This document shows, one piece after another, positions 17,325 to 32,159 of a stretch of DNA of 64,000 nt. The position numbers were made by a program, and so were the translations under genes. Numbering within the stretch: position 1 is the stretch's first letter; each line of letters starts with the position of its first letter. The stretch comes from Acidimicrobiia bacterium (GTDB taxonomy: Bacteria > Actinomycetota > Acidimicrobiia > Spongiisociales > UBA5794): assembly GCA_036396535.1 (NCBI GenBank), contig DASWKR010000060.1, positions 1-64,000 on the forward strand, given 5' to 3'. Below the pieces are notes generated by a model. It was given only the letters and a program-made list of their open reading frames with translations. It ran no database searches and was not told the origin of the DNA.

Positions 17325-17849
17325 TCAGACTTCCTCGTCTGCCTTCTCGTAGCGATCGAGGGCGGCGACGAACATGAAGAACAGGATGGCCGAGCCGAGC
17401 ATCGCCGCGATGGCCGGGATCCTGATCTGGAAGGCGTTGAGGCCTTCGAGCACGGCGGGACGCAGCCCGCGGGGGGCGTAGACGACGAACAGGAGGCTGC
17501 CGATGACGAGCCACCCGAAGGTGGCCGCACCGGTGATCAGGAAGGCGAGGCGGCTGCCCAGGTTCGTGGAGAGGACGAGGAATCCGGTTCCGACGAAAGC
17601 GACGACCGAAACGATCGCGATGAGGATGCCGCGAGCGGCGATCGAGAACTGTGTGATGTCCCCCGCCTCGTCGCGTCGCTTGAACACCCCGTCGTAGGCG
17701 TCTCCGAGGAGGCCGCGGGCCGCGGGGATGAACGACAGCACGGTCACGACGATGAGGGCGACGCCGAGCTTCTCGAGCCTGGTGAGGCCCTCCTGGCGAG
17801 CCGCCACCTCGAGGACTTGTGCTCGGAACCTCTCCCTCATCGGTTTCAC
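17325..17849 (-). CDS. Membrane protein of the cytochrome bc operon, function unknown
   Basis: A 174-residue protein with four likely membrane segments (about residues 27-47, 72-92, 98-121 and 145-163), a basic N-tail and a charged C-tail. GTG start overlaps the diheme cytochrome gene by four bases, so it is the last gene of the cytochrome operon. I do not recognise a family. Its position suggests an accessory or assembly subunit of the quinol:cytochrome c reductase. No heme-binding motif is visible. Confidence 0.7.
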   Translation of the reverse strand: MKPMRERFRAQVLEVAARQEGLTRLEKLGVALIVVTVLSFIPAARGLLGDAYDGVFKRRDEAGDITQFSIAARGILIAIVSVVAFVGTGFLVLSTNLGSRLAFLITGAATFGWLVIGSLLFVVYAPRGLRPAVLEGLNAFQIRIPAIAAMLGSAILFFMFVAALDRYEKADEEV

Positions 17850-19519
17850 AGCGACCTCTCGAATGCGACGATCAGCTCGATGTCTCGCTGGGTGAGCACC
17901 TGGCCGAAGCCGGGCATCCGCCCCGTCCCCAGCCCGTTGATGCCGTAGTTCTTGCCGAACTCACTACCGCCGGTGACGAACGTGATGTGGGTGGCAGGGT
18001 CCGGGAACTGAAGGAGCGCCCTGCCATCCTCGAGCGACGGTCCCCACGCCCCCGAGCCGGGCGCCTGCTGGAACGCCACGCCGGCGCTGTAGCCGGCCGT
18101 GTGGCATCTGGCGCAGTAGGCGTTGAAGAGGCCGAAGGCGCGCCTTGCATCCTCTGTCGTCAGCGTGCTCTCATTCCCTTCCTCGTCGTGGACGGCGACG
18201 TCTGTGCCCTCCATCGCGGTGAGCACGTCGTCGTAGTCGACCTCCCACGCCGCGATCGCCTTGGCGTCCTCGAGGAACTCGATCCTCGACTCGACGCCGC
18301 CGAGGAAGACATCGTGACGATCCGTCGTCACGCTGAGGGTGAGCCGTGACGTGTCGAGCTCGGTGAGGAACGTCTCAGCTGCCTCGAGGTCGGCGATCGG
18401 GATCGCATCCGTGGTCTCGTTCGTGAATCCGTCGTCCGTCCTGAACGTGACTCCGTAGTCATCCACCGCTACGAGGTTCACCTCCAGCTCCTGGTCTCCG
18501 TCGTCGTTCGTGGTTGCCGACACCTGGCGGGTGACCACGGTTTCGTGGACGACCATGGCGATCTCCGTCAGGCGGCGCTCGGCGGCGTCGGCGAGCCCGT
18601 CGCGGTCCGTGTCGGCTCCGGCGCCGATGCACGACTGGCCGACGAGCGTCGCCGACCGGTCGGTGCAGGTCCCGTCGTCCGCGAAGAGTGCCCTGATCTC
18701 GGCCGGGAAACCCTCGATCGTGGCGAACTTGTCGGGCGCATCGTTGACGTCGTCGCGTTGGGCCAGCTGTTGCGCCAGCAGCAGGTCGACGACGTCTTCT
18801 CCGTTGACGATCCTGTCGAGGGCGATCTGGACGGCGTTGTCGATCCTGAGCAGCGCCTCGTCCTGCGAGAGCTGCAGGTTGTGGAGAAAGGCGAGGACCT
18901 GGTCGATCTCCTGGACCGTCATCGATCCTCCGCCCTCGAGACCGGCAGGCGCCATCGGGGTGCCGTCACGCCCATACGTGATGACGGTGCGCACCTCGTC
19001 CTCGGTGAAACGGAAGAAGACGTCGTCGAGGGCCGGCGCCAGCCACGACGTGTTGATGCCGCTTCGCCTCTCGAGGAAGGGAGCGGCACCGCCTCCGGCC
19101 GTCGGGCCGTGGCAGTTGACGCACGCGAACTCGGTGAACCACTCGGAGCCCGCCTCGATGTCCTTCTCGGCGAACTTCTCGGCTGCCCCCGCCTGTCTCC
19201 CGGACTCGTTCACGTAGTAGACCGGGAGCACGACCGCCAGGACCGCTGCCGACACGACTGCGGACGTCAGCACCCGATTGAGCCTGGTGGACTCGAGCAC
19301 CTCGTCCGGGACTCCCGGACGGAGGTTCAGCGGCGTCTCCTCCTGGCGTCTGGCTCGGCGCCTGGCGTTGATGACGATGTACCCGACCCACCCGAGGAGG
19401 GCGGCGAGTGCCAGCGTGAGCACCACCGAGCCGAGCCCGACGTTGCTCGGCCCCACCGGGGCTTCCTCCTCGACCGCGAGGATCAGCGGGGCGGCTGCGA
19501 AGAAGGCCTTGTCGTGCAT
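17846..19519 (-). CDS. Membrane-anchored diheme cytochrome c of the bc complex
   Basis: A 557-residue protein with membrane segments near residues 29-50 and 83-102, then two c-type heme sites, CVNCH near 133 and CARCH near 469. The C-terminal domain ends with GRMPGFG, giving a Met ligand. Between the hemes lies an unusual insert of about 300 residues with acidic, beta-rich sequence that I do not recognise. Diheme cytochromes replace cytochrome c1 in actinobacterial bc complexes (QcrC), but those have closely spaced hemes. ATG 19519 overlaps the Rieske stop by one base; a GTG three bases earlier is equally possible. It should accept electrons from the Rieske protein. Confidence 0.85.
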   Translation of the reverse strand: MHDKAFFAAAPLILAVEEEAPVGPSNVGLGSVVLTLALAALLGWVGYIVINARRRARRQEETPLNLRPGVPDEVLESTRLNRVLTSAVVSAAVLAVVLPVYYVNESGRQAGAAEKFAEKDIEAGSEWFTEFACVNCHGPTAGGGAAPFLERRSGINTSWLAPALDDVFFRFTEDEVRTVITYGRDGTPMAPAGLEGGGSMTVQEIDQVLAFLHNLQLSQDEALLRIDNAVQIALDRIVNGEDVVDLLLAQQLAQRDDVNDAPDKFATIEGFPAEIRALFADDGTCTDRSATLVGQSCIGAGADTDRDGLADAAERRLTEIAMVVHETVVTRQVSATTNDDGDQELEVNLVAVDDYGVTFRTDDGFTNETTDAIPIADLEAAETFLTELDTSRLTLSVTTDRHDVFLGGVESRIEFLEDAKAIAAWEVDYDDVLTAMEGTDVAVHDEEGNESTLTTEDARRAFGLFNAYCARCHTAGYSAGVAFQQAPGSGAWGPSLEDGRALLQFPDPATHITFVTGGSEFGKNYGINGLGTGRMPGFGQVLTQRDIELIVAFERSL

Positions 19520-20409
19520 CACACGCAGGACGGGCCCTGGGGATATGTCGCCGTCTTGTTCTTGGAGCGAGGTGTCTGGAAGATGGCACCCGTATTGACG
19601 ACGAGCTCGCCGGCGTCAGTCAGGGACACCTCGAACCGGTCGAGGTTGCGGGGTGCCGGGCCTGCCTCGTATTCGCCGTGGAAGTTGTAGCGCGATCCGT
19701 GGCATGGGCACTCGAAGCCCTGCGAAGGGACGCATGAAGGCACCCGGCACCCGAGGTGGACGCACCTCTGCCACAGCGCCATCAGCCCCGGTTCGCCTCC
19801 GCCCGCCCCCACCAGGACGGGCAGGTCCTCGAAAGAGCTCCCCGCCATCTCGTCCTCCGGAAACGAGATCAGCCATGTCTGGGCGGCGGCCACGAACTTC
19901 GGCACGACGGTCCCATCCGGTTGGACGATCTCCGTCCTGAGGTCTTCGAGGGTTCCGACGTTGAAGGACGTACCGAACCCGCCTTTGAGCTTCGGCCACA
20001 AGAACGCCAGGAAGCTGATGGTGAGGCCGCCCATGAACGCCCCGCCGAACAGGCCGAGGAGCGCCCGGTTGAGGAAGCGTCGGCGCGTGACGTCGAACTC
20101 GTCGGCGGAGATGTCGACCTTCTCGAGGAGCCGGTCGACGGGTGGCGCCTCTCTCTCACCAACTCCCTCAGTCTCTTCCTCGAGCTCGGTCTCCTCGCGC
20201 ACCAGAGTCGCAACACCACCTGAGGCGGCGGCGATCCTGGCCTGGCGTTCCGCCCTGGCGGCCATGTCCCTGGCTGCCGCCTCCTTGTCGAACTCGCCTG
20301 TGATCGGGCCCGCCGCCGCCCCGCGCCGAACCGCCACGGTGAGGATGCCGCCGGCGACGAGCACCGCCGCTGCGATGAGCCCGATCACGAAGATTGTCGT
20401 TGATTCCAT
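19519..20409 (-). CDS. qcrA: Rieske [2Fe-2S] protein of the quinol:cytochrome c reductase
   Basis: A 296-residue membrane Rieske protein. It has an extra N-terminal membrane segment (residues about 6-26), a charged linker, a second segment near 120-140 (LLGLFGGAFMGGLTISFLAF, preceded by RRRFLNRAL, a twin-arginine-like site), and the cluster domain with CVHLGC and CPCHGS, which supply two Cys and two His plus the disulfide pair. Two membrane segments before the cluster resemble the actinobacterial QcrA layout. It carries electrons from menaquinol to the diheme cytochrome encoded next. Confidence 0.92.
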   Translation of the reverse strand: MESTTIFVIGLIAAAVLVAGGILTVAVRRGAAAGPITGEFDKEAAARDMAARAERQARIAAASGGVATLVREETELEEETEGVGEREAPPVDRLLEKVDISADEFDVTRRRFLNRALLGLFGGAFMGGLTISFLAFLWPKLKGGFGTSFNVGTLEDLRTEIVQPDGTVVPKFVAAAQTWLISFPEDEMAGSSFEDLPVLVGAGGGEPGLMALWQRCVHLGCRVPSCVPSQGFECPCHGSRYNFHGEYEAGPAPRNLDRFEVSLTDAGELVVNTGAIFQTPRSKNKTATYPQGPSCV

Positions 20410-20416
20410 CACTGCC

Positions 20417-21385
20417 TCAGAAGTCGAAGAAGATGCCTGCGTCCCACGGGAACGTGAAGTTGAAACCGGGGCCCCTGAAGAACGAGCCGTAGATCGTGAG
20501 GATCGCAGACGCGAACACGAAGAAGCTGAAGATCATGATCGCCAACTTCCTGTCCGAGGGGCGAACCGACGGGTTCCTGTCGATGTACGGCACGATCGCC
20601 AAGCCGGCGAGGCCGAATCCCGGGATGATGACCCCGGCGACCTGCGGATCGAAGTACGAAAGCAGCTCCTGCAGGCCGAGGAAGTACCAGGGGGCTTTCG
20701 AAGGGTTCGGCTGGGCGTTGAAGTTGGCGAACTCGAGCAGCGGAGCGTCGACGAACACCGAGAACACGAAGACGGCGGCAGTGCAGATCATCAGAGCGAC
20801 GAACTCCACTGCGACGAGGTGGGGCCACGTCGAAACCTTGTCGGTCGGCTCGGCCTTGACCTGCTGGATTGCCCCTGCCTTGACGACCGTGAGGAGCCGC
20901 TGCGTCCTCACGCCCTCCGGAATCGCCGGAGCCGCCGCCGGGGCGGTCGCAGCAGCCGCTCCGCCTCCGGTCGCCGCCGCGGCGGGCGCCGCCACAGCCG
21001 GTGCAGATGCTTCCCCTGCGATCGCAGGTGCGGGCTCGCCCGAGTGGCGCGCTCGCGCCAGTGCGGCCCTGCGGAGCAGCGAGGCCGGAACGCCGTACTG
21101 CTCGGACTCTGCCGAGAGGTCGCGCGCCGGACCAGAAGGGGCCGCCTGGACAGCCGGTGCGTCGGCGGCCGGGGCCTCTGCCGGCGGGGCCTCTGCGGGC
21201 GGCGTCTCGGCCGCAGCGACGGGAGGCTCCTGAACGGAGGCGGCGGGAGATTCTTGGACGGCCTCGCCTTCGGAGGGGGGAGCGTCTCCTCGCATCTCGG
21301 CGAGCACCTCGCTGACGGTGCGTCCCTCCGCCCTGGCTCTCGCCTCGGCGCTGCGGCGCAGTATGTGCTCGGGTATCTCAGCCAT
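20417..21385 (-). CDS. Cytochrome b C-terminal half (PetD/subunit IV-like) with long Ala/Pro N-tail
   Basis: A 322-residue protein whose C-terminal 140 residues match subunit IV of b6f complexes: PNPSKAPWYFLGLQELL at 227-243 is the quinol-site signature, followed by two more membrane segments. The first 180 residues are a cytosolic Ala/Pro-rich tail, absent from normal PetD (about 160 residues total). The tail holds two copies of a short helix motif, IPEHILRRSAEARARAEG at 4-21 and VPASLLRRAALARARHSG at 99-116. The same motif starts the CcoP-like cytochrome at 26.6 kb. Good ribosome site (GAGG) before ATG. It pairs with the separate cytochrome b N-half encoded upstream. Confidence 0.9.
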   Translation of the reverse strand: MAEIPEHILRRSAEARARAEGRTVSEVLAEMRGDAPPSEGEAVQESPAASVQEPPVAAAETPPAEAPPAEAPAADAPAVQAAPSGPARDLSAESEQYGVPASLLRRAALARARHSGEPAPAIAGEASAPAVAAPAAAATGGGAAAATAPAAAPAIPEGVRTQRLLTVVKAGAIQQVKAEPTDKVSTWPHLVAVEFVALMICTAAVFVFSVFVDAPLLEFANFNAQPNPSKAPWYFLGLQELLSYFDPQVAGVIIPGFGLAGLAIVPYIDRNPSVRPSDRKLAIMIFSFFVFASAILTIYGSFFRGPGFNFTFPWDAGIFFDF

Positions 21386-21394
21386 GCCTCGACC

Positions 21395-22177
21395 TCACAA
21401 CGGCCCCGAGATGCCGCCGTCTTTGCGAACTCGCCAGAAGTGGACCGCCATGAAGATGACGATCACGAACGGCAGGAACAGGACGTGCAACACGTACCAG
21501 CGAAGCAAGGTGTCCGGCGTGATCTGGACGCCGCCGATCAGCGCGAACGACACCTGCGCTCCGAATACAGGGGTGTAGGCCGCCATGTTCGAGCCGACGG
21601 TCACGGCCCACACCGCGAGCTGATCCCAAGGGAGGAGGTAGCCGGTGAACGAGAGCAGCAGGGTGAGGAGGAGGAGCACGACGCCGACGACCCAGTTGAA
21701 CTCCCTGGGCGGCTTGTACGCGCCGTGATAGAAGACCCGTGACATGTGGAGGAACACGGTCAACACCATGGCGTGGGCTCCCCACCGGTGCATGTTCCTC
21801 ACGACCTGGCCGAACGCAACGTCTGTCGAGAGCGCCTGGATGTCCTGGTAGGCGGCCGGCGAGGTGGGCCGGTAGTAGAACATCAGGAAGATCCCGGTGA
21901 TGGTCAGCAAGATGAACAGGAAGAAGCTGAGGCCGCCGAGGCACAACGTGTAGGACAGCCGGACGCTGTGCCGTTTCACCTTCACCGGATGGAGGTGATA
22001 CAGAACGTTGTTCATGATGACGTAGGAGCGGTTGCGAGGGCTGTCGGTGTAACCGTGCCTGAAGGGGGAGCCGGGGCGGAAGATCGAGCTCCACGCCTGG
22101 CTCTGACGGATGTGATCGCCCACGTCGGCGAGCCGCTCCTTGAGGCCGACCCTCCCGTCTCCGTTGCCGTTGGCCAA
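21395..22177 (-). CDS. Cytochrome b N-terminal half (b6-like)
   Basis: A 260-residue four-span cytochrome b of the b6 type. Bis-heme ligands are intact: His130 and His144 in the second span, His231 and His246 in the fourth, with the 14 and 15 residue spacings of b6. The chain ends ISGPL as in b6. Cys79 in the YTLCLGG region lines up with the b6 cysteine that binds heme ci, so a covalent extra heme is predicted. TTG start is supported by AGGAGGG just upstream. It oxidises menaquinol together with the subunit IV-like protein and Rieske protein. The gap to the ferredoxin gene upstream is 170 bases and shows no gene and no clear promoter. Confidence 0.92.
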
Positions 22178-22347: not shown

Positions 22348-22791
22348 TCACCAACGCATGCCGTACGAGTAACCGTTCTTGAAGTCCCGCTGGCCCGTGT
22401 TGTACTCCCAGGGAGCCATGCCGAACTGCTCTGCCTGCTCGGCGAGCGACCCGGCGAACTTGCCGAGCGTGATGACCCCCGTCGGGCACCGGTCGACGCA
22501 CAGCGCGCACCTGGTGCACTCGTCTTCGTCGACGATGAAGAACCCGAAGTTCTCGGCGTTGTCACCCGGGTTCTCGACGTTGGCCCCCTCGGCGATGGCG
22601 TCGAGCGAGAGGTAGTGGATGCACTTCCACGGGCAGATGTCGACGCATCCCTCGCACAGGATGCACTCCGACTGGTCGATGTGGAGGAACTGCTTCGGTC
22701 TGACCGCGGCAGTGAGATAGGCACCGTCGACCGCCGTCAATTGGTAGTCGTCGCGCATCGGAGGAGTCTCGAACCAGACCTCGTTCGCCAT
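22348..22791 (-). CDS. Ferredoxin with two [4Fe-4S] sites in the cytochrome b operon
   Basis: A 147-residue soluble protein with two CxxCxxCxxxCP motifs: CILCEGCVDICPWKCI near 43-58 and CTRCALCVDRCPTGVI near 92-107. The 33-residue spacing between them is longer than in small bacterial ferredoxins and more like NuoI or membrane-complex ferredoxins. No membrane segment. ATG starts two bases after the stop of the membrane protein gene, so the two are coupled. A ferredoxin as a bc-complex partner is unusual and suggests low-potential electron entry or exit at the complex. Confidence 0.88.
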   Translation of the reverse strand: MANEVWFETPPMRDDYQLTAVDGAYLTAAVRPKQFLHIDQSECILCEGCVDICPWKCIHYLSLDAIAEGANVENPGDNAENFGFFIVDEDECTRCALCVDRCPTGVITLGKFAGSLAEQAEQFGMAPWEYNTGQRDFKNGYSYGMRW

Positions 22792-22793
22792 GC

Positions 22794-23402
22794 CTACCTA
22801 CCCACCTTCGTGAGCGGGCGCCCGTAGGTGGACACCGGAGCGGGCGGAGGGGCGGTCTCGACGCGCTTCGACCTCTCCTGCCACTGGTACATGCCGACGG
22901 CGATGATCCCGGTCACGACGACGACGTAGCCGCCGGCGATGGCGTCCTTGAGGACCGCGGCGCTGATCTTCACCTCGTTGTTGAGGACGAGGGCCTCGGG
23001 GACGGTGAGGATGATCTTCTGGGGGGTCCACTCCCAGACGGCCTGGGTCAAGGTCAGCCATTGGTTCGGGATGATCCCGAAGAGGATGATCATGAGCGTC
23101 GTGAAGACGGATGCTCCGATGGCAGCCCTGGCCCACGTCATCGGGCGCTTGTAGAGGAAGCCGATGGTGATGCCTGCCAGCATGGCGAGCCCTCCGCCGA
23201 GCGAGACCGTCTGGCCGATGAGGGTCCACAGCCAGCCGCGCGGGATGTTCGGGTAGATCTCGGCGTTGAAGGCGTTCACGGGGGGCAGGCTCGTGAAGTG
23301 TGAGAAGAGCGCCCCTCCGATCGTGACGGCGAGCCCGCCCACGATCAGCCCGACGCCGATGAGCTCGTTGCGTCGCAGCTCGCCTGGTTCGGCCTGTGGC
23401 AT
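22794..23402 (-). CDS. Four-span membrane protein heading the cytochrome b operon
   Basis: A 202-residue protein with four membrane segments (about residues 14-33, 58-83, 91-112 and 152-172) and a basic C-tail. No cofactor motif is visible and I do not recognise the family. It is the first gene of the operon, with a TACAAT -10 box 28 bases before its ATG and GAGG at a suitable distance. Coupling to the ferredoxin gene suggests it anchors the ferredoxin to the membrane, by analogy with NrfD-like or HdrE-like anchors; this is inference only. Confidence 0.75.
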   Translation of the reverse strand: MPQAEPGELRRNELIGVGLIVGGLAVTIGGALFSHFTSLPPVNAFNAEIYPNIPRGWLWTLIGQTVSLGGGLAMLAGITIGFLYKRPMTWARAAIGASVFTTLMIILFGIIPNQWLTLTQAVWEWTPQKIILTVPEALVLNNEVKISAAVLKDAIAGGYVVVVTGIIAVGMYQWQERSKRVETAPPPAPVSTYGRPLTKVGR

Positions 23403-23429
23403 TGCCTGTCCTCGGTCGGTCGGACTCCC

Positions 23430-23435
23430 ATTGTA
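23430..23435 (-). promoter_or_regulatory. TACAAT -10 box of the cytochrome b/ferredoxin operon
   Basis: On the minus strand TACAAT is followed by a leader of roughly 20-25 bases containing GAGGACAGGC before ATG 23402. No confident -35 box was seen. Confidence 0.45.
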
Positions 23436-23536
23436 AGTGGTCGCGCCGGCCTCGAAGTGACCGTAAGGGGTGCCCACTGCTGTGCGAGAAGCGGTCCGGC
23501 GATGCTCCGGGTCGTTCCCCGCGCGCAGGCCTGTGT

Positions 23537-24439
23537 TCAGGTGCCGTTCTGCGAGAAGTGCATCCAATCCTTCAGGGAGTTCCAGTCCCCGCCCCATTCC
23601 CATCCGATCGAGGCGAAAGCATCGAAGACGGCGTCGCCCCGCTCGATCATGCCGGGCCGCAGGCGTGACCGATCGACGTACGACGAGGACAGCTCCGGGA
23701 GCACGAGGTCGCCCTTGATGTACGGGTTGTGGAAGGGATTCACGTCGATGGCGAGACCGAAGGCGTGCTGCGACCACGACGTGCCACCGGTTGCCGGTCT
23801 GCATTCGAAGGATCCCGTGACGTTGCCGTCGCCCGTCGGCGGGGCGTCGAGCTCGTCGACGGTCAAGACCCTCATCTGCTCGATCGGGTAGCCGGCCGCG
23901 AAGAGCGCCTCGAAGACGGAAACGACGCCGTCCGCCACCGAGGCGTTGACGATGATCTCGCCGGTGTGGACGACCCCGTCGAACCCGTGGTGCGTCACCG
24001 TGAGATACGCCAGGTCGGAGGCGGCGACGGGACATTCGTCCTGCCAGGTCGACCGGGCGAGCACGTCGGCCGGCACGGGCCCGCTCGTCGCTGCGAACTC
24101 GTCCGCGTCGGGCCGCGGGAGGTGGTCGATCGTCTCGAAAGCCCGGTTCTCCAGCTCGGGCGGGGTTGGCTGGGCGATGCCGAAGCCGTCCGGGCGCTCA
24201 GGCAGGACACGGCTGCCGAGCCACTCTGGCCGGGCGTGCGGCGACTCGGTCGTCGTCGCTGCCGGGACGGTGGTCGTCGTGGTCGTCGGTGGCGGCTGGG
24301 TCGTCGTCGAAGCCGGGGCCGTGCTGGTCACGGTCGGGAGCGGCCCGAGAGTCGCCTGCGGCCCGGTCGTGATCGTCGCGCCGGCAGTCGAGCACGCCGC
24401 CAGCCAGGCGAGCCCGGCGACGGCGACGGTTGTGCGCAT
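23537..24439 (-). CDS. Lipoprotein M15 (VanY-type) D-Ala-D-Ala carboxypeptidase
   Basis: A 300-residue lipoprotein. The signal ends with a LAAC lipobox (residues 13-16), followed by a Thr-rich linker (about residues 40-62) that spans the wall. The catalytic domain carries the M15 zinc motifs SQHAFGLAIDVNP near 225 and DWMHF near the C-terminus (His, Asp, His ligands), so it is probably an active cell-wall carboxypeptidase or L,D-endopeptidase. ATG 24439 is six bases from a TACCGT box and is taken as a leaderless start. Divergent from the CcoN-CcoO gene. Confidence 0.85.
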   Translation of the reverse strand: MRTTVAVAGLAWLAACSTAGATITTGPQATLGPLPTVTSTAPASTTTQPPPTTTTTTVPAATTTESPHARPEWLGSRVLPERPDGFGIAQPTPPELENRAFETIDHLPRPDADEFAATSGPVPADVLARSTWQDECPVAASDLAYLTVTHHGFDGVVHTGEIIVNASVADGVVSVFEALFAAGYPIEQMRVLTVDELDAPPTGDGNVTGSFECRPATGGTSWSQHAFGLAIDVNPFHNPYIKGDLVLPELSSSYVDRSRLRPGMIERGDAVFDAFASIGWEWGGDWNSLKDWMHFSQNGT

Positions 24440-24557: not shown

Positions 24558-24605
24558 ATGGCCCGAATGCGGATCGATCTCGTGGGAGGGAACGGGCAGG
24601 CGTGA
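24558..24605 (+). CDS. Leader mini-ORF (15 codons) coupled to CcoN-CcoO gene
   Basis: ATG ten bases after TAACCT opens MARMRIDLVGGNGQA, and its TGA overlaps the GTG of the oxidase-like gene (GTGA). A GGGAGGG ribosome site for the main gene lies inside the mini-ORF. The layout predicts leaderless translation followed by re-initiation at the GTG. Confidence 0.4.
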   Translation: MARMRIDLVGGNGQA

Positions 24606-26569
24606 CTACGACGGCTGAAACGCTCGAGGCGGAGGCACCCGCCCCCGAGCCGTTCCACGATCACACCGACAGGGCAGTGAAGGCGCACCTCCAGGCGTCC
24701 CTCGTGCTCTTCGCCGTCGGCCTGCTCGGTCTGGTGGTGCTGGCGGTCAAGTTGATCGAGCCGGAGTTCCTCGGAGGCGTCGCCTTCCTGTCGTACGGCC
24801 GCATGCAGCCGATGGTGACCAGCCTCCTCCTGTACGGCTGGCTCACGATCGGGCTGTTGGGAGCCGTGTGGTATGTGGTTCCTCGGGCGACGGGCGCACC
24901 ACTGCACGGTGAGCGGTTGGCCCTCGTCTCGCTCGGTCTCGTGACGCTCGGGCTCCTGGCAGGCGTCGCCGGCATCGGAGCCGGCCTCTCCGAGGGCCGC
25001 CGCTATCTCGAGATGCCGATCTGGGCAGACGGCATCGTCGCACTCGGCCTCGTCGCGGCAACGGTCGTCGTCACCAGGACGGTGCAGGGGGGAGACGTCA
25101 AAGCGCTCTCACCGGTCCAGTGGTACCTGGTCGCCGCCGTGCATTGGCTGCTCTTCATCCATGTCGTCGGCAACATCCCCGGGCTCACCGGCCTCAGCAG
25201 CATGTTCCAGGAGAGCTTCTTCAGGGCGGGCCTCGTCGGGCTGTGGGTGGGCGCCGCCGGCGTCGGGGTGACGTACTTTCTGATTCCCCGCCTCACGGGC
25301 CGCCCCGCTTTCACGGCGACCCAGATGTCGGTGCTCGGCTTCTGGTCGCTGGCGTTCCTGTGGGCTCTGACCGCTCCCGCCGAGCTGACGTACGGCCCGG
25401 GAGGCGACTGGCTCGACACCATCGGTATCATCTTCTCGATCTGCCTGTTGGTCGCGGTCCTCGTGATCCTCGCCGACATCGTCACGGCGATGCGGGGCAT
25501 GTGGCACCGGGTCGGCGACAGGCTCACCCTCCGCCTGCTGATGGCGGGAGCCGTCTGTTTTGCGATCCTCCCCCTCCTCAACCTGATCGTGGCGCTGCGG
25601 TCCTCGAACACCGTCGTCGGCTACACGGATTGGGGCGGTGCGTACGAGTCGCTCGCCGTGCTGGGCGCCGGCTCGCTGTGGCTGGCTGCCTGGGTGAGGC
25701 ACGCCGCGCCGGAAGTCCTCGGCAGGCCGAGCGGGTTCGGCTCGTTCCACTACGTGGCGTCGCTCACCGGACTCGCATTGGTCGTCGGATCGCAGCTCTT
25801 GGCGGGCGCCGTCACCGGGTTCACCTGGGCGGCGGCAGCCAACTCGGCGAAGTTCATCAATGCCGGGGACGGGTGGCTCAACACGGCAGCCACACTCGAG
25901 CTCCCGCATGCATTCCGGGTGACCGGCGTCGCCGTGTTCACGGCAGCCCAACTGGCGTGGATCGTCGCCAGCTTCGGAGGAATCGCCAGGCCCGGGGCCG
26001 TTGCGGCGTTGGCGGCCCAGGATGACAGTCCCGAGCCCGAGGTGACGCAGGAGCTGCTCCTGGCCCGTCCCCTCGGCCTGGGCCGGCTCCGCACCGGCTA
26101 CGTCGGGCTGTTCGCCGTGGCGGCCCTGTTCGCACTGGTCCTCCCGTCGCTCGATCAGCCCCAGGCCGAACCCACGCGCCTCGCCGACGCCCATCGCTAC
26201 TACCCGGATGGTGCTCCGGCGACGATCGGCCGCCAGGTGTTCATCGCCGAGGGCTGTGTTGCGTGCCACACGCAATCAGTACGTCCGATCGTCACCGACG
26301 TCGGGCTCGGCGCTGTGAGTCAACCGGGCGACTACGCAAGGGAAACGCCCGTCCAGGTCGGCTGGGTGCGGCTCGGCCCCGACCTGATGCACGCCGGCTC
26401 GCGCGACCTGACGTCGGGTGCCAGCTTCGTCACGGACCACCTCGCCGACCCGCGGCGGTTGCGGCCGTGGTCGATCATGCCGAGCTACGACTACCTCAGC
26501 GATCGTGATCTGAACGCCCTCGGCGCCTACATCGCCGGCCTGGCGAGCATCGCGGATGGGGAGGAGTGA
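24602..26569 (+). CDS. CcoN-CcoO fusion: cbb3 oxidase subunit I homologue lacking metal ligands, plus monoheme c domain
   Basis: A 655-residue protein. Residues 30-465 align over their length with cbb3 subunit I: SYGRMQP (CcoN SFGRLRP), FLIPRLTGRP, FWSLAFLW, GGDWLDTIGI and VGYTDWGG all match. The ligand positions do not. CcoN RPLH becomes QPMV (Val72), YGHNAVG becomes RAGLVG (Ala209), GPHHLHYT becomes APAELTYG (Ala260, Glu261) and IGHVHAGALG becomes GAYESLAVLG (Tyr348, Ser350). No heme b, heme b3 or CuB should bind. Residues 497-655 are a CcoO-like domain with one anchor, CVACH at 552-556, GPDLMHAGSR and a Met ligand in SIMPSY, so heme c is expected. The CcoP-like gene follows with a one-base overlap. 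A structural, electron-carrying role is inferred. Confidence 0.85.
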   Translation: MTTTAETLEAEAPAPEPFHDHTDRAVKAHLQASLVLFAVGLLGLVVLAVKLIEPEFLGGVAFLSYGRMQPMVTSLLLYGWLTIGLLGAVWYVVPRATGAPLHGERLALVSLGLVTLGLLAGVAGIGAGLSEGRRYLEMPIWADGIVALGLVAATVVVTRTVQGGDVKALSPVQWYLVAAVHWLLFIHVVGNIPGLTGLSSMFQESFFRAGLVGLWVGAAGVGVTYFLIPRLTGRPAFTATQMSVLGFWSLAFLWALTAPAELTYGPGGDWLDTIGIIFSICLLVAVLVILADIVTAMRGMWHRVGDRLTLRLLMAGAVCFAILPLLNLIVALRSSNTVVGYTDWGGAYESLAVLGAGSLWLAAWVRHAAPEVLGRPSGFGSFHYVASLTGLALVVGSQLLAGAVTGFTWAAAANSAKFINAGDGWLNTAATLELPHAFRVTGVAVFTAAQLAWIVASFGGIARPGAVAALAAQDDSPEPEVTQELLLARPLGLGRLRTGYVGLFAVAALFALVLPSLDQPQAEPTRLADAHRYYPDGAPATIGRQVFIAEGCVACHTQSVRPIVTDVGLGAVSQPGDYARETPVQVGWVRLGPDLMHAGSRDLTSGASFVTDHLADPRRLRPWSIMPSYDYLSDRDLNALGAYIAGLASIADGEE

Positions 26570-27474
26570 TGGACGAGCTGCTGCGGCAGGTCGCGGACGA
26601 GACGGGCGTGCCGGCCGACCTGCTGAGTCGCGCCGCCGCGGCGCGAGCCAAAGCGCTCGGCGTCGAGACGGCCGAGCTGGTCGCGTCGTGGGCCGGAGCA
26701 GAAGCTCCTCCACCTGCACAACCGGCGGCTCCTGCAGCTCCTGCGGAGCAACCTGCAGCCGAGGCGGCGCCCGAGCAGCCACAGCCGGCTGTGCCCGCCC
26801 CCGACCAAGCCGTGACGGCACAGCCGGACACTGCGCCGCAGGTCGAGGTGCTCGAGCCGGAGGCAACGGCGCCGGAGGCGGAGGCGGAAGTGGAGCCCGG
26901 GCCCGCCGGCCTGTTGAGCTCTTTCCCGACGTGGCTGGCGGCCGCCTTCATCATCATCCCGAGCATCGCGGTCCTCTATGCGTTGCTCACGCCGAACGCC
27001 CCTGAGTGCGGCACGGCGGGGCAACTCGCCATCGATCCTGTGAGCGGTGCGGCCGTGAACTGCGACGGGACGGCGTACGGCGTCGACATCGTCAACTTCT
27101 TCACGATCGGCCGCGAGGTCTACGACGCTCGGTGCGTCTCCTGCCATTCCGCAGACGGCTCGGGCGGCGCAGGGCCCGCCCTGCGCAGTGGCTCCGTGCT
27201 CACGACCTTCAACGCCGGGAACTGCATCGCCCACATCGATTGGGTGGCACTCGGGACGGCGGGCTGGCCTGCCGAGCATGGCAACACCTACGGCGACAAC
27301 AACAAGCCAGTCGGCGGCAGCGGCGCCCAGATGCCGGGATTCGAAGGGCAGCTGACGCCTGAGGAGATCCAGGCGGTTTCCCTCTACGAGCGAGTGGCGT
27401 TCGGTGGCCAGCCGCTTCCGGAGGCCGAGGTGGATTGCGGCGCGGTAGAGAGCGGCGTGGTGGCGGCCCCGTGA
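26569..27474 (+). CDS. Membrane monoheme cytochrome c, CcoP-like, with docking-type N-tail
   Basis: A 301-residue protein: cytosolic tail of about 118 residues, very rich in Ala and Pro; one membrane segment at 121-140; then a periplasmic c domain with CVSCH at 189-193, the GSGGAGPALR turn typical of CcoP-type hemes and a Met ligand in AQMPGF near 255. Two further Cys (147 and 165) could form a disulfide. The tail starts with VPADLLSRAAAARAKALG at 14-31, the same motif as in the cytochrome b C-half at 20.4-21.4 kb. ATG 26569 overlaps the previous stop, with GGGGAGGAG upstream. It probably accepts electrons from, or passes them to, the c domain of the fusion protein. Confidence 0.88.
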   Translation: MDELLRQVADETGVPADLLSRAAAARAKALGVETAELVASWAGAEAPPPAQPAAPAAPAEQPAAEAAPEQPQPAVPAPDQAVTAQPDTAPQVEVLEPEATAPEAEAEVEPGPAGLLSSFPTWLAAAFIIIPSIAVLYALLTPNAPECGTAGQLAIDPVSGAAVNCDGTAYGVDIVNFFTIGREVYDARCVSCHSADGSGGAGPALRSGSVLTTFNAGNCIAHIDWVALGTAGWPAEHGNTYGDNNKPVGGSGAQMPGFEGQLTPEEIQAVSLYERVAFGGQPLPEAEVDCGAVESGVVAAP

Positions 27475-30974: not shown

Positions 30975-32074
30975 TCACGGGGGTGCGTTCGCTCGTGGGG
31001 GGAGGAGCCGACGCCGTTGCGGTGGTGTCGCGGGGTCGAGGGTGTAGCCGCGCAGGTGAACCACGACGTGGTGGTGATACCAGCACAGCGTGGCCAGGTT
31101 GTCGGCGTCGTGGCTGCCACCCTCAGACCACGGGATGACATGGTGAGGTTGGAGGCGGTAACGCGACGAGCACCCCTCGATCGCGCAGGCACCGTCGCGC
31201 CACACAACGAACCTGCGGACCGCTCCCGGGATGGCCCGCTGTGACCTGGTCACAGTGACCGGACGACCGCCGTCGCCGATCCCGACGACGTTGACCCCGG
31301 CGGTGCAAAGGAGCATCTCGAGGGTGGCCGGCCCGACCCGCGGACCGGCGGCGACCTCGGCGCCTGCCTCGCCCCGGGTGTCCGCTGCCAGAGCGGCGTC
31401 GACACCGTCACGGCAGGCACCCGCGGACCACCCATCCCCGGCTCACCGTCGAGTGAGTCCTCGGCGATCGAAACCAGCGCATCCGCCAACCTGGCGCCCC
31501 GCGACTCGCCGCCAGGAAACGACGGCAACTCATCCGAACGCTGATACACCGCCTTCTCCAAGGTGGCGAAATCGAAACCGGGGAGCTCCCCCCACGCCCG
31601 CCCCGACGACCGGTCGAGGCTCGGCTGCATCGCCAGATGCCGCCCGGCGGCGACCTGGCGCTCGTCACGGCGAGTGACACGACGGTGACGACCGGCCAAC
31701 CTGCCCACCCCGGCGATATCGAAGCCACCGGAAGCGACGAGCAGATCGGCGTCACCGCCCGCAGCCGCCAAGCGACCCGTGGCGACCGCTCGGTCGAACG
31801 ACACGTCCCCGACCATCAGCGCCTCCCAAACCTCCGGCACGCCAGTCAAGATCTTCATCGCACGGGTCAGCGAACGAGCCGATTCGTGAGACACGTCACA
31901 GCGAGCCGCCACCCAATCCTCCAAAGACCGGGCACCGTCGACCTGCTGAACCTGGGCCGCATCCAACCCCCGCAACAACTCGAGCTGCCTGGCCCGCAAG
32001 CGCCCGACGATCCGCTCACACGCCACCAACTCCTCCTCGAGCGTGTCAACCGACGTTTCACTCATCGAGAACAT
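30975..32074 (-). pseudogene. DUF222/13E12-type HNH endonuclease gene, frameshifted
   Basis: The N-terminal part (32074 to about 31415) is a DUF222 helical domain (start MFSMSETSVDTLEEEL; SLEDWVAARCDVSHESA near residue 50). The C-terminal part continues in another frame from about 31425 to 30975: VDAALAADTRGEAGAEVAAG, then an HNH nuclease domain with CAIEGC, RLQPHHVIPWSEGG and NLATLCWYHHH. In intact relatives these form one protein of about 400-450 residues, so a one- or two-base shift near 31413 breaks it. Such multicopy actinobacterial genes often decay. A sequencing error is also possible. TAGGTT lies six bases before ATG 32074. Confidence 0.7.
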
Positions 32075-32159
32075 GACCACAACCTACGACCCGGATACGA
32101 CAGAAACCGGCCTGCAGCGCCTGTGGGCTCGGGCGTCGTGGCGGGGTCGCGGCGCGAGC

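Follow-up and report, generated by a model that had tools for sequence, protein, structure and literature searches.

The window, by which we mean the whole 64,000-nucleotide stretch analysed here (contig DASWKR010000060.1 of the UBA5794 assembly GCA_036396535.1), carries a gene in which a membrane domain resembling CcoN of cbb3 oxidases, devoid of heme b and copper ligands (hereafter CcoN'), is fused to a CcoO-like cytochrome c domain (CcoO'). The fusion, its parts and the CcoP-like gene that follows (CcoP') are these:

24602-26569, plus strand: fused ligand-free CcoN-like and CcoO-like protein, 655 residues, in a single open frame with a GTG start
24665-25975, plus strand: CcoN-fold membrane domain, residues 22-458, with no heme b, heme b3 or CuB ligand (ligand table, AlphaFold2, Foldseek)
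26078-26152, plus strand: extra helix, residues 493-517, joining the CcoN and heme c domains (AlphaFold2 helix, hydrophobic sequence)
26219-26545, plus strand: CcoO-like heme c domain with C552-x-x-C555-H556 and Met626 (PF02433, ligand conservation)
26566-27474, plus strand: CcoP-like membrane-anchored monoheme cytochrome c, whose start codon overlaps the fusion stop (PF13442/PF00034)
26608-26685, plus strand: N-terminal tail motif of the CcoP-like protein, VPADLLSRAAAARAKALG (motif search)

Opposite the fusion, a divergent operon encodes a b6f-like complex III:

22794-23495, minus strand: small membrane protein, here called M4TM, first gene of the operon, start codon uncertain, conserved across the class
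22348-22791, minus strand: 2x[4Fe-4S] ferredoxin-like subunit with eight cluster cysteines, 100% conserved
21395-22177, minus strand: cytochrome b6-like subunit of PetB/ExtP type, with four heme b histidines and Cys79 at the heme ci position
20417-21385, minus strand: subunit IV-like protein (PetD), whose N-terminal tail has two copies of IPEHLLxRSxEARAKAxG (domain search, motif)
19519-20412, minus strand: Rieske [2Fe-2S] subunit, Rieske ligands kept (domain search)
17846-19522, minus strand: bc complex cytochrome c subunit with two CxxCH sites (domain search)

Between M4TM and CcoN'O' lies a lipoprotein-like open reading frame (about 23537-24400, minus strand) that by eye looks like a VanY/M15-type peptidase; in relatives the two genes are usually closer together than in the window genome. 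Further along, an open reading frame at 31250-32080 (minus strand) with an HNH-type, 13E12-like C-terminal look is probably a mobile-element remnant.

Pfam COX1 (PF00115) matches residues 25-415 of the fusion with 93.6 bits against a gathering cut-off of 34.8, and Pfam FixO/CcoO matches residues 541-638 with 77.6 bits. Against NCBIfam ccoN (TIGR00780) the fusion scores 123.8 bits, short of the curated cut-off of 583. Its nearest solved relatives in phmmer searches are the cbb3 CcoN chains 9g83_t and 3mk7_A (E ~1e-21), together with CcoO chains. The AlphaFold2 model (pLDDT 87.9, pTM 0.92) agrees, as Foldseek ranks cbb3 CcoN first for the predicted fold (TMt 0.88, rmsd 2.5 to 3mk7), and CcoN' is assigned to the C family from these best structural and sequence matches. 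Even the protein of the most divergent clade, family f12, is predicted to adopt the CcoN fold (pTM 0.88, TM 0.81-0.85). On the predicted structure, the fusion is a 12-helix CcoN fold lacking the six His ligands of catalytic CcoN; the linking helix at residues 493-517 is probably a transmembrane anchor.

The ligand positions were mapped by three routes: phmmer to 3mk7_A and 9g83_t, MAFFT with Pseudomonas stutzeri CcoN, and profile-profile alignment with HHalign, which against intact CcoN from 16 loci gave E=1e-76 over 437 columns with few gaps. All three place the six histidines and Tyr251 identically, which rules out motif misalignment as the source of the loss. None of the six histidines is kept in the fusion, where H60 corresponds to V72, H207 to A209, H257 to A260, H258 to E261, H345 to Y348 and H347 to S350; the cross-linked active-site Tyr251 is W254, and none of the ligand-free homologues has Tyr there. 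In the set of 85 ligand-free sequences, which includes several contigs fetched twice (the reduced tree has n=70), 83 keep none of the six histidines and two keep one, while all six are present in 72/72 intact CcoN sequences used for comparison. Judged by these alignments, the loss in the CcoN' family is far beyond chance. The two exceptions, L026 and L027, have their residual histidine at the position of the CuB ligand H257 (GAHTL and GSHNF).

A conservation scan found no His, Met or Cys column in the CcoN' membrane domain that could supply substitute ligands, the highest conservation being 54%, and alternative ligands of these kinds were rejected accordingly. The residues at the former ligand positions vary (Ala, Ser, Val, Leu, Arg and others). 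Of the positions invariant in intact CcoN, CcoN' retains chiefly glycines, prolines, tryptophans and tyrosines, and it has lost, among others, the six ligands, Tyr251, N62, N144, Y317 and G324. By contrast with the emptied membrane domain, the heme c site of the fusion (C552, C555, H556, M626) is intact and 98-100% conserved.

The original prediction, made by eye from the letters of the window, had an unbroken CcoN motif alignment in which every heme b, heme b3 and CuB histidine and the cross-linked Tyr region were changed, beside a CcoO-like part that kept its heme c motif and Met. All of this was borne out. It had also pointed to retained non-ligand histidines, and here it holds in part: they are present in the fusion and are weakly conserved in the family (H187 in FIHVV 23%, H383 in SFHYV 54%). 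His436 in LPHAF, named as a possible replacement ligand along with other conserved histidines, proved to be unconserved.

A homologue was found in 51 of the 60 relatives searched, and a class-wide sample gave matches in 82/198 genomes, including family f12, whose streamlined genomes of ~1 Mb, judged by size and kinship, probably belong to Actinomarinales. UBA5794 has been described as the sister order of Actinomarinales, and the paper on its genomes names both complex III and complex IV with no mention of cbb3 (PMC12008989). In a sample of the phylum, 14/296 genomes matched: the window genome, three of the same order and ten of other classes, five of these ten being ligand-free and five intact cbb3. 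Nearly all of the 85 ligand-free sequences come from the class Acidimicrobiia, with five from elsewhere in the phylum. In a scan of named genomes, the ligand-free matches were Acidimicrobiia or Actinomycetota metagenome-assembled genomes plus one labelled Acidobacteria, which groups inside the former, whereas matches from Acidobacteriota, Bacteroidota, Planctomycetota and others keep all six histidines. A CcoN tree built without the ligand columns and without an outgroup, from which the other-class sequences were left out, separates ligand-free from intact sequences by one branch (SH-aLRT 100); the ligand state changes once on it, against 26.7 times in shuffles.

Between close pairs, the CcoN part shows dN/dS of 0.05-0.22 and the heme c part 0.04-0.15, a sign of strong purifying selection. 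The ligand-free core is thus maintained rather than decaying, and decay of CcoN'O' is rejected by these values and by synteny, in line with the original view that the changes do not reflect general decay.

The partners of CcoN' have kept their cofactor sites. PetB retains His130, His144, His231 and His246 together with Cys79, and the cofactor ligands of the partners are mostly 95-100% conserved. In CcoP', the heme c ligands C190, C193 and H194 are conserved at 100% and M256 at 95%; this protein scores 18.5 bits against an NCBIfam ccoP cut-off of 180, the CcoO-like domain being present in the fusion. As far as sequences can tell, CcoN alone among the subunits of the locus has been emptied of cofactor ligands. 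M4TM matches no Pfam or NCBIfam family, and its His66 is 93% conserved. The 2x[4Fe-4S] protein is encoded in the same b6f-like operon as the PetB with the heme ci Cys79, and it could possibly serve as a cytoplasmic entry for electrons into complex III.

Among the Acidimicrobiia loci examined that carry CcoN'O', nearly all have it facing the divergent operon (M4TM, 2x[4Fe-4S] protein, PetB, PetD, Rieske and diheme cytochrome c); families f13 and f15 show rearranged variants. The CcoP-like gene, read in the same direction as CcoN'O', adjoins it in nearly all loci, and where the contig continues it is often followed by a GGR/MenJ-like reductase and Nuo genes. In many other Acidimicrobiia families, CcoN'O' is absent from the locus of bc, ferredoxin-like, M4TM and CcoP-like genes; there the CcoP-like gene lies directly opposite M4TM, or no CcoP-like match is seen. 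CcoN'O' is therefore an accessory of the locus and not essential to the complex generally.

The N-terminal tails of PetD and the CcoP-like cytochrome have in common the consensus IPEHLLxRSxEARAKAxG, of which PetD carries one to five copies. A regular-expression search of six-frame open reading frames of at least 80 residues found it in the window only in these two genes, and a whole-genome search with the consensus peptide returned them as its two best matches, PetD clearly (E=6e-12) and the CcoP-like cytochrome weakly (E=0.16). Copies per 10,000 residues number 38 in PetD, 13 in CcoP-like proteins, 0.09 in unassigned open reading frames and 0.01 in shuffles, and a small number of matches fall in frames assigned to CcoN'O'. 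The motif is a possible docking tag linking PetD and the CcoP-like cytochrome, and from the shared tails we infer that the bc complex and this cytochrome may have a common docking partner.

A link to the aa3 oxidase appears in gene order, strongly in one genome only. In locus L142 (family f15) the order is ResA-ResB-ResC-CcoN'(+cupredoxin)-CoxB-CoxA-CoxC-CoxD-CtaG-CcoO'-CcoP'-GGR, so that intact aa3 genes, among them a CoxA with an undiminished Pfam score of 544.7 bits, lie between ligand-free CcoN' and CcoO'. The CcoN' of this operon (L142:13090-15219, minus strand) has a C-terminal cupredoxin fusion. In families f13 and f56, CcoN'O' adjoins ResABC. In the window's genome, an intact CoxBACD-CtaG (aa3) cluster lies on a different contig from CcoN'O'; in this assembly, which is about 96% complete, no cytochrome bd subunit I was found, nor any actinobacterial QcrB or ccoG above cut-off. 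The genome also carries another cytochrome b, incomplete and located at the edge of a contig (G000:C42:1-641, L151), adjoining an FeS/NAD(P)-type oxidoreductase gene with two [4Fe-4S] motifs; this is a different protein from the cytochrome b of the locus.

Since the CcoN fold has been kept intact by evolution beside complex III genes, it is probably a membrane holder for the cytochrome. We consider it fairly likely that CcoN'O' is a scaffold free of heme b and copper that docks heme c and passes electrons from complex III towards aa3. A cbb3-type module would have been converted by the lineage to a dock without heme b and copper, in which CcoN' would hold the CcoO-type heme, and probably also the CcoP-like cytochrome, next to the b6f-like complex III. 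Menaquinol electrons would pass by way of Rieske and diheme c to the CcoP-like and CcoO-like hemes, and from these to the CuA or heme c of a separate aa3 oxidase; the CcoP-CcoO relay of cbb3 would thus survive as a bridge that connects complex III with complex IV, its oxygen-reducing core having turned structural. Physical association of the bc complex, CcoN'O'P' and aa3 is what we infer from the genomic linkage by which the three are known here. The original prediction spoke of a scaffold that replaced a catalyst. A scaffold is the best explanation; "replaced" is only partly apt, because an intact aa3 oxidase elsewhere in the genome makes the fusion an added component of the complex III locus.

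Other readings fit less well. The former active site might have been repurposed for a quinone, lipid or other small molecule, making CcoN' a functional subunit, for example a quinone-handling or proton-conducting one, rather than a passive scaffold. The ligand columns have lost ~150 cubic angstrom, and residue volumes give no indication of compensating bulk in the neighbouring faces (permutation p 0.16), so that a cavity is conceivable; CcoN' also belongs to a menaquinol-oxidizing cluster near the GGR/MenJ-like reductase and Nuo genes. Yet no new conserved polar network has arisen, the conserved Gly, Trp, Pro and Tyr are mainly those of intact CcoN, and the ligand positions hold varied residues, so we regard such a use as unlikely. 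It is similarly improbable that CcoN' is merely a membrane anchor whose 12 helices are kept only for fusion to, or folding of, the CcoO-like cytochrome. In the window's family the two parts are indeed fused, and the cytochrome part is the better conserved in the alignment; in many relatives, however, CcoN' and CcoO' are separate genes that are both retained, a single helix suffices as an anchor in the CcoP-like cytochromes, and in the same pairs dN/dS is as low for the CcoN part as for the heme c part. That unusual ligands other than His still bind a b-type heme or copper is very improbable in view of the variable ligand positions and the lack of a conserved His, Met or Cys column. That CcoN'O' is a decaying, pseudogene-like relic deserves next to no credence: identities of 25-50% for the CcoN part against 70-90% for cytochrome b do show the former to evolve faster, but open frames throughout the class, purifying selection, synteny and retention even in genomes of ~1 Mb contradict it.

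More broadly, and tentatively, the scaffold reading may extend to a history in which an ancestor of several actinobacterial lineages turned a cbb3-type CcoN/CcoO/CcoP-like module into a catalytically empty electron relay, serving as scaffold for a b6f-like complex III that bears a ferredoxin-like subunit. This would have given rise to a kind of III-IV supercomplex not described before, and probably even Actinomarinales, abundant marine bacteria with streamlined genomes, would have it.

Heme-copper oxidase subunit I is the textbook catalytic core of its enzyme, and a large, selected family without the b heme and copper site makes possible a test of the role of the fold without its chemistry. 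Among the closest known proteins is the fused CcoNO of cbb3 (PRK14485, "bifunctional subunit I/II"), which has the same fold, the same order of CcoN and CcoO and a CcoO-type heme c motif. CcoN'O' differs in lacking the six histidines and Tyr251, in scoring 196.9 bits against a curated PRK14485 cut-off of 1080, and in its place in a bc-complex locus of a genome without ccoG above cut-off. Because CcoN' genes pass the Pfam COX1 cut-off, as do six ligand-free homologues of diverse clades (lowest 39.6 bits), surveys can miscount them as terminal oxidases, even as low-oxygen cbb3 oxidases, and microaerobic respiration may be wrongly inferred.

The PetB of the locus resembles the ExtP/ExtQ-type cytochromes b6 (NF040969/NF040970), with 309.8 bits against an ExtP cut-off of 290. 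ExtP and ExtQ are named for selenite/tellurite reduction operons, whereas PetB here accompanies Rieske, a ferredoxin-like subunit and CcoN'O'P'; with its ferredoxin-like subunit and heme ci Cys, the locus points to an undescribed type of complex III. In known III-IV supercomplexes (bc1-cbb3, 8smr/6xkw; actinobacterial bcc-aa3, 7qhm, 6adq, 9gy6), a bc complex and an oxidase-fold subunit are joined by membrane cytochromes c, and we propose a like arrangement here. The arrangement here differs in that the oxidase-fold CcoN' lacks catalytic metals and that a b6f-like complex III with a ferredoxin-like subunit takes the place of QcrCAB.

In the open literature, outside which most subscription papers lie, no account of a family of ligand-free CcoN came to light, and only one precedent did: a deranged COX1-like protein of Acetobacter, which is reported to be without any of the residues that bind its metal cofactors, is kept in the genome and has been proposed to have a structural role, as summarized in the part of PMC10715153 that cites Matsutani et al. 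2014. As described there, the two proteins are alike in the loss of all cofactor-binding residues. The Acetobacter protein is described as resembling COX1 and as encoded in a cluster with CtaB in acetic acid bacteria, whereas CcoN' is of the C family and its identified neighbours are bc-complex genes. Unlike the protein of that account, CcoN' has an intact fused heme c, belongs to a complex III locus and occurs in many families of a phylum, and the CcoN' family is thus a new and larger variant of this precedent.
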